From Rhodospirillaceae bacterium (lineage in GTDB: Bacteria; Pseudomonadota; Alphaproteobacteria; UBA6615): a DNA stretch of 64,000 bases. Made by a program: the position numbers and the translations under genes. The stretch spans positions 18,876 to 82,875 of the forward strand of contig JABJEK010000079.1 in NCBI GenBank assembly GCA_018702955.1, in the 5' to 3' direction. The notes below the pieces were generated by a model. The model ran no database searches, was not told the DNA's origin, and saw only the letters and a program-made list of their open reading frames with translations. Each line of letters opens with the position of its first letter. Position 1 is the stretch's first letter. Shown one piece after another: positions 8,791 through 40,800 of this stretch.

Positions 8791-8910
8791 GTCATACGCG
8801 GACTTGATCCGCGTATCTCACATAGACCGAGACGAGATGCCCGGATCAAGTCCGGGCATGACGGGTGTGAGTTGAGAGACGAGATGCCCGCATCAAGTGC
8901 GGGCATGACG
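8791..8910. repeat. Intergenic palindromic repeat cluster (three hairpin units)
   Basis: GTCATACGCGGACTTGATCCGCGTATCTCA (8791-8820) and two inverted copies (8834-8862, 8881-8909). Confidence 0.9.
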
Positions 8911-29389: not shown

Positions 29390-29461
29390 GTCATACGCGG
29401 ACTTGATCCACGTATCTCACAAAGACCGAGACGAGATACCCGCATCAAGTGCGGGTATGAC
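29390..29461. repeat. Composite intergenic palindromic element (two inverted hairpins plus linker)
   Basis: GTCATACGCGGACTTGATCCACGTATCTCA...GACCGAGACGAGATACCCGCATCAAGTGCGGGTATGAC. Confidence 0.9.
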
Positions 29462-32468: not shown

Positions 32469-32603
32469 GTCATGCCCGGACTTGATCCGGGCATCTCACT
32501 TGGACCGAGACAAGATACGCGGATCAAGTCCGCGTATGACGGTATTGGTATAGCGTCTACTACGACACCTTCACGTCATACCCGCACTTGATGCGGATAT
32601 CTC
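32469..32603. repeat. Composite intergenic palindromic element plus an extra hairpin unit
   Basis: Units at 32469-32498, ~32512-32540 (inverted) and 32575-32603. Confidence 0.9.
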
Positions 32604-32609
32604 CCACAA

Positions 32610-32673
32610 CCTCATGCTGAGCCTGTCGAAGTCTGAGGTTGCCGCCCTCTCCTTCGACAAGCTCAGGATGAAG
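32610..32673. repeat. Imperfect inverted repeat of CCTCATGCTGAGCCTGTCGAAG type
   Basis: CCTCATGCTGAGCCTGTCGAAG (32610-32631) and CTTCGACAAGCTCAGGATGAAG (~32652-32673). Confidence 0.8.
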
Positions 32674-32696
32674 GCTTTATTCGAGACACAGAATTG

Positions 32697-36434: not shown

Positions 36435-36506
36435 GTCATGCCCGCACTTGATGCGGGCATCTCGTCTCAGTCCAAGTGAGATGCGCGGATCAAGTCCGCG
36501 CATGAC
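36435..36506. repeat. Composite intergenic palindromic element, inverted relative to the copy at 32469
   Basis: GTCATGCCCGCACTTGATGCGGGCATCTCGTCTCAGTCCAAGTGAGATGCGCGGATCAAGTCCGCGCATGAC. Confidence 0.92.
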
Positions 36507-40659: not shown

Positions 40660-40800
40660 AAGATATCCGGGTCAAGCCCGGGTATGACGGTGGGGTGATA
40701 TCAAGCTGGCGACAGCCAAACCCAAAACGTCATACGCGGACTTGATCCGCGTATCTCAAAAACACCGAGACGAGATGCCCGCATCAAGTGCGGGCATGAC
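40660..40800. repeat. Composite intergenic palindromic element plus an additional half element
   Basis: Units at ~40660-40687 (inverted), 40729-40758, 40772-40800 (inverted). Confidence 0.9.

Follow-up and report, generated by a model that had tools for sequence, protein, structure and literature searches.

The intergenic hairpin repeat found in the window (the whole 64,000-nucleotide stretch of DNA analysed here) is a new member of the CGTC-tagged REPs, and both arms of its stem change together, including after insertion. The repeat is a 9-bp hairpin with a fixed tag and loop that lies preferentially at gene 3′ ends; the stems of paired copies almost never match, and no transposase gene is flanked by it. 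The initial annotation had called the repeat REP-like and left the family unnamed; it can now be assigned to the CGTC REPs, closest to CGTC-3 (PMC3733652). The best overall explanation, to which we give a probability of about 0.6, is that CGTC REPs spread, mostly as pairs, through an enzyme acting in trans, and that resident copies are kept folded, probably as RNA.

Copies of the repeat in the window and in its genome

At least 13 copies at five loci had been claimed for the window, and this count holds: the consensus has 13 matches, one of which carries one mismatch while the other 12 are exact, compared with none in 100 dinucleotide shuffles of the window (Table 1). Each hairpin consists of a C-GTC tag, a stem of 9 bp whose first pairs are A-T and T-A, a 5-nt loop CTTGA and a tail CT(C). 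At the gathering thresholds of Rfam, a search of the window found nothing but a tRNA, and the best sub-threshold match at the repeat locus scored 22 bits against a cut-off of 83.

Table 1. Positions of the REP copies in the window, with the seven free stem pairs given as left arm/right arm.
Feature	Stem	Positions	Strand	Remarks
REP copy	ACGCGGA/TCCGCGT	8791..8818	+	left member of tag-out pair
Spacer of 8.8-kb pair		8819..8834	n/a	16 nt, CACATAGACCGAGACG
REP copy	GCCCGGA/TCCGGGC	8835..8862	-	right member of 8.8-kb pair
REP copy	GCCCGCA/TGCGGGC	8882..8909	-	third copy at 8.8 kb
REP copy	ACGCGGA/TCCACGT	29390..29417	+	left member; one C.A mismatch
REP copy	ACCCGCA/TGCGGGT	29434..29461	-	right member
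REP copy	GCCCGGA/TCCGGGC	32469..32496	+	left member
REP copy	ACGCGGA/TCCGCGT	32513..32540	-	right member
REP copy	ACCCGCA/TGCGGAT	32575..32602	+	single copy; one C.A mismatch
REP copy	GCCCGCA/TGCGGGC	36435..36462	+	left member
REP copy	GCGCGGA/TCCGCGC	36479..36506	-	right member
REP copy	ACCCGGG/CCCGGAT	40661..40688	-	single copy; one C.A mismatch
REP copy	ACGCGGA/TCCGCGT	40729..40756	+	left member
REP copy	GCCCGCA/TGCGGGC	40773..40800	-	right member

Because the consensus of the initial annotation restricts the letters of the stem, the search was repeated with the stem left free, using the pattern GTCAT N7 CTTGA N7 ATCT, in which tag, loop and tail are fixed; the first two stem pairs (A-T, T-A) thus belong to the search anchor. 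The genome from which the window comes (G000) contains 76 exact stem-free matches, with none in the reversed control, and 128 when up to two mismatches are allowed, with eight in the reversed control. Comparisons at the genome level were made on the stretches around such matches. The loop, described earlier as fixed, is nearly but not fully so: among 102 copies it is CTTGA in 87, CTCGA in eight and something else in seven. The tail of the same copies is CTC in 73, CCA in 15 and CTT in 10, and the C before GTC is present in 93/102, 94/99 and 109/117 copies of three genomes.

Two local features of the window deserve mention. At 32610-32675, a second palindromic repeat, CCTCATGCTGAGCCTGTCGAAG...CCTTCGACAAGCTCAGGATGA, adjoins a REP copy; it recurs many times in another genome, G004, where similar units fill the orthologous gaps. 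Separately, stems that have C-G at pair 11 (GCCCGCA/ACCCGCA) cluster, as does the spacer motif GACCGAGACG, at 8.8-40.8 kb of the window and in the syntenic region of the sister species G006, a clustering that suggests local spread of one subtype.

Covariation of the stem arms

With the stem unconstrained in the search, all seven free pairs are Watson-Crick in 64 of the 76 copies of the genome and in 59 of the 69 copies of the sister species G002. Pairs 6-24, 8-22 and 12-18 are strongly variable in G000, and pairs 7-23 and 11-19 are less so. For 88 distinct stems collected across the class, 91.4% of cells are paired, compared with 20-42% (maximum 41.5%) when the register is slid, and 117 cells carry changes on both sides, where shuffles give 31.9; double changes are present in all seven free pairs. 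Covariation, the absence of which the initial annotation had named as a refuting outcome, is strong: its score is 0.438, whereas shuffles give 0.135 +/- 0.013 and slid registers no more than 0.091. The initial annotation had considered that the variants might simply be two or three fixed sequence lineages. This is not the case, because the three strongly variable pairs reassort: each of three genomes has seven of their eight possible combinations, and together the genomes have all eight.

Compensated changes at orthologous copies

Loci were taken from the stretches around copies in G000, G002 and G006 and matched by their repeat-masked flanks, which are about 85% identical. Two-sided Watson-Crick changes at orthologous copies number 12, 11 and 5 in the three species pairs, where a per-site rate predicts approximately 0.4, 0.7 and 0.2, and one-sided changes number 13, 11 and 9 against 35, 31 and 18 expected; as the three species pairs are non-independent, the figures are not to be added up as events. 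At 29.4 kb, for instance, the stem of the right copy is ACCCGCA/TGCGGGT here and GCCCGGA/TCCGGGC in G006, with two pairs swapped. Such compensated double changes indicate that the fold is kept at resident copies. Spacer identity within orthologous pairs is only 60-72%. G000 and G002 also share stretches of about 4 kb without a single difference (L090 and L113, L092 and L126; 100% identity, against about 85% at the other loci compared), which reflects either recent transfer or contig mixing between the MAGs.

Selection on folding, proposed from the window alone, is thus supported by the covariation, by the reassortment of stem pairs and by the orthologous double changes, with the caution that compensation can also be produced by hairpin-templated repair or by paralogue copying. 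We consider that selection on folding most likely keeps the stems paired. The alternative, that one arm corrects the other during repair or that a paralogue overwrites the copy, would match the arms with no selection on folding at all, and we regard it as unlikely, though likelier than the other rivals. It would fit the predominance of perfect palindromes and the rarity of one-sided states, as well as the decayed stems of the copy-poor genome G001, which are expected if arm matching needs donors. The kinds of change observed point both ways: 9 of the 28 two-sided changes fall at pairs 7, 8 or 11, at which the variants are largely G-C to C-G swaps that have no wobble intermediate, whereas the other 19 fall at pairs 6 and 12, where A-T and G-C can be exchanged by way of a G.T wobble. 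The free reassortment of stem pairs argues against this alternative, as does the C-G at pair 11 (GCCCGCA), which is common to particular loci and has not been homogenised across the genome.

Genomic position

In the window, four of the five loci are flanked by convergent genes. When all gaps in the window are counted, copies are held by 4/13 convergent, 1/25 codirectional and 0/13 divergent gaps. Across the sampled stretches, with genes called by codon usage, repeat clusters occupy 65 convergent, 60 codirectional and 8 divergent gaps, the background of these counts being biased because the stretches were chosen for containing repeats. The median distance of clusters to gene 3′ ends is 26 nt.

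Copies are strongly enriched in convergent gaps and close to 3′ ends, as would be expected of transcription terminators or attenuators that mainly end convergent transcripts. We nevertheless find this function doubtful, because most stems are not followed by a T-run and so are not ordinary terminators, the tail being CTC. Moreover, in the stretch at 29.3-40.9 kb no more than two copies reach a terminator-like score, the number of terminator-like sites there (10) is near the 6.8 +/- 2.8 found in shuffles, and the repeat is missing from many genomes of the family. Mismatches read on the transcribed strand, which bear on whether selection acts on RNA or on DNA, comprise eight G.U against four A.C, low counts that give a weak indication.

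Tag-out pairs and unlike partners

Most copies (78/102) belong to pairs that face in opposite directions with their tags outward, separated by spacers that are mostly 16-17 or 23-30 nt long and largely unrelated in sequence. Three genomes provide 74 short-spaced pairs, defined as tag-out pairs with a spacer of 10-22 nt. The partners differ at stem pair 7 or 8 in 73 of these, where about 40 are expected, and none has identical stems, where about 11 are expected. When a G-type unit is paired with a C-type unit, the other variable pairs of the stem differ beyond expectation as well (P = 0.014, <0.0002 and <0.0002). A chimeric-partner control for partner co-evolution gave 41 versus 35 differences, from as few as eight comparisons. 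Shared ancestry of two unit types may explain part of the partner difference.

Folding with DNA energies gives two hairpins in 50 of the 74 real pairs and in none of 148 artificial homodimers, all of which form one long hairpin. When RNA energies are used, one long hairpin is still the fold of 62 of the 74 real pairs. We tentatively raise the possibility, which we would not yet bet on, that partners are under selection to fold separately, their stems being kept unlike by compensated changes within each, so that a pair forms two small single-stranded DNA hairpins rather than one long cruciform, and that whole pairs can flip in place.

Regarding inversion, the whole 36.4-kb pair (36435-36506) has the opposite orientation in G006 (L163). 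Its spacer is reversed as well, with 81% identity against 56%, and the left flank is conserved up to the junction. From this alignment, the pair was probably inverted in place between the sister species; the competing account is an independent insertion into the same gap. The 40.7-kb pair (40729-40800) differs in orientation from both G002 and G006, and other candidates for inversion are weaker than the 36.4-kb pair.

Finally, it is highly improbable that the stem variants are old master-copy lineages, paired before they spread, with nothing acting on resident copies. Such lineages would fit the depth of the pair-8 types (G or C), for which orthologues show few changes (3 double changes), and the frequency of recurring partner combinations in dimers. 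Against them, three pairs occur in all eight combinations, stem divergence is several-fold lower than that of the spacers in the same pairs, and the same-locus double changes between species contradict such lineages unless the loci are independent insertions.

Distribution and mobilising enzyme

Within the genus, four species carry CGTC copies in abundance, whereas G001 and G003 have few and G005 has none; they are also found in a second genus of the family. Of 289 genomes sampled from the class, 20 contain exact-anchor matches, some of them single and chance-like, and exact copies are present in Ferrovibrio MAGs. G001, which belongs to the same genus, has about nine copies, of which two of nine have intact stems, and pairing is therefore not kept everywhere. 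The mostly broken stems of G001, with tag and loop remaining, look as if the CGTC family were decaying there.

To our knowledge, no enzyme is known to mobilise CGTC REPs, and no function is accepted for them. We searched for two Pfam families, the Y1 and the IS110-type transposases. G000, G002 and G004 each encode one Y1 transposase, and these genes are flanked by GTAG repeats of the GTAGGGGCGGGTTTCAAACCCGCCC type, not by CGTC units; the RAYT-like gene at L009 1245-1850 (G000:C99), and likewise those at L206 and L207, lies between GTAGGGGCGGGTTTCAAACCCGCCC repeats. These repeats form a GTAG REP family that is distinct from the CGTC units of the same genomes and has a transposase of its own. 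No CGTC unit stands beside a Y1 gene at any of the five Y1 loci of the family. The genome of G006, which is 98% complete and has 120 CGTC copies at up to one mismatch, gave neither a Y1 nor an IS110-type match; GTAG repeats are present there, yet no Y1 gene was found.

An IS110-type partner was considered because dRS3 of Neisseria belongs to the CGTC superfamily. It was rejected, since the CGTC-rich genomes G000, G004 and G006 yielded no match; the search in G002 gave only a marginal match with internal stops. The filled and empty sites available for comparison were too diverged to provide a clean empty site from which target duplications could be read.

A possible life history of the repeat

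CGTC REPs would have spread, mostly as tag-out pairs, into gene 3′ ends and convergent gaps, and past spread may have been driven by an enzyme that acted in trans on single-stranded, folded DNA. Unlike partner stems would favour two separate small hairpins in that single-stranded DNA over one long cruciform. Resident copies would then stay folded, either because the hairpin is used or because it is tolerated only when folded; the fold would most plausibly serve as a structured RNA element at mRNA 3′ ends. The same-locus compensated changes at resident copies argue that folding still matters once a copy is in place. Points against this history are the RNA-energy folds, in which most real pairs form one long hairpin, the weak transcribed-strand indication, the broken stems of G001, the lack of a T-run after most stems and the failure of the searches to find a mobilising enzyme. 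With roughly 100 copies or more in each of four species, at approximately 85% identity, the genus offers a good natural experiment for separating selection from repair, and the partner-difference rule is a testable idea for why REP pairs so often have unlike units.

Comparison with known repeat families

Di Nocera, De Gregorio and Rocco (2013) described four families of CGTC-tagged REPs, mostly from Alphaproteobacteria; they have stems of 8-9 bp starting with A-T/T-A and loops of 4-5 nt, sit beside 3′ ends and are without a dedicated transposase (PMC3733652). The superfamily includes dRS3 of Neisseria and RPE-4/RPE-6 of Rickettsia, which, unlike our repeat, are CGTC-1 and CGTC-4 and have other stems or loops. 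Our repeat shares with CGTC-3, as there described, the unpaired CGTC at one end, the 9-bp stem with A-T/T-A first, the 5-nt loop, the arrangement in paired units that are mostly heterodimers, the placement next to 3′ ends and in convergent gaps, and the lack of a dedicated transposase. It differs in its loop (CTTGA/CTCGA), in its host, an uncultured Rhodospirillaceae-like genus, and in its tail, which here is mostly CTC with a minority of CCA, whereas most, although not all, CGTC-3 tails are CCA.

REPINs and GTAG REPs with RAYT (TnpAREP) are likewise short, tagged, intergenic hairpins that occur in high copy and in opposite-facing pairs. They differ in that the tag here is CGTC and not GTAG, and in that no Y1 transposase gene is flanked by the CGTC repeat.

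Heterodimers predominate in CGTC-2 and CGTC-3, for which the 2013 paper offers ‘no obvious explanation’ (PMC3733652); selection for separate folding, if true, would explain that preference. Compensation at the level of orthologues, a strict partner-difference rule and in-place inversion were not found in the open-access literature available on such REPs. On that basis, we suggest that the present repeat adds to a known family orthologous compensation, a quantified partner-difference rule and a probable in-place inversion.
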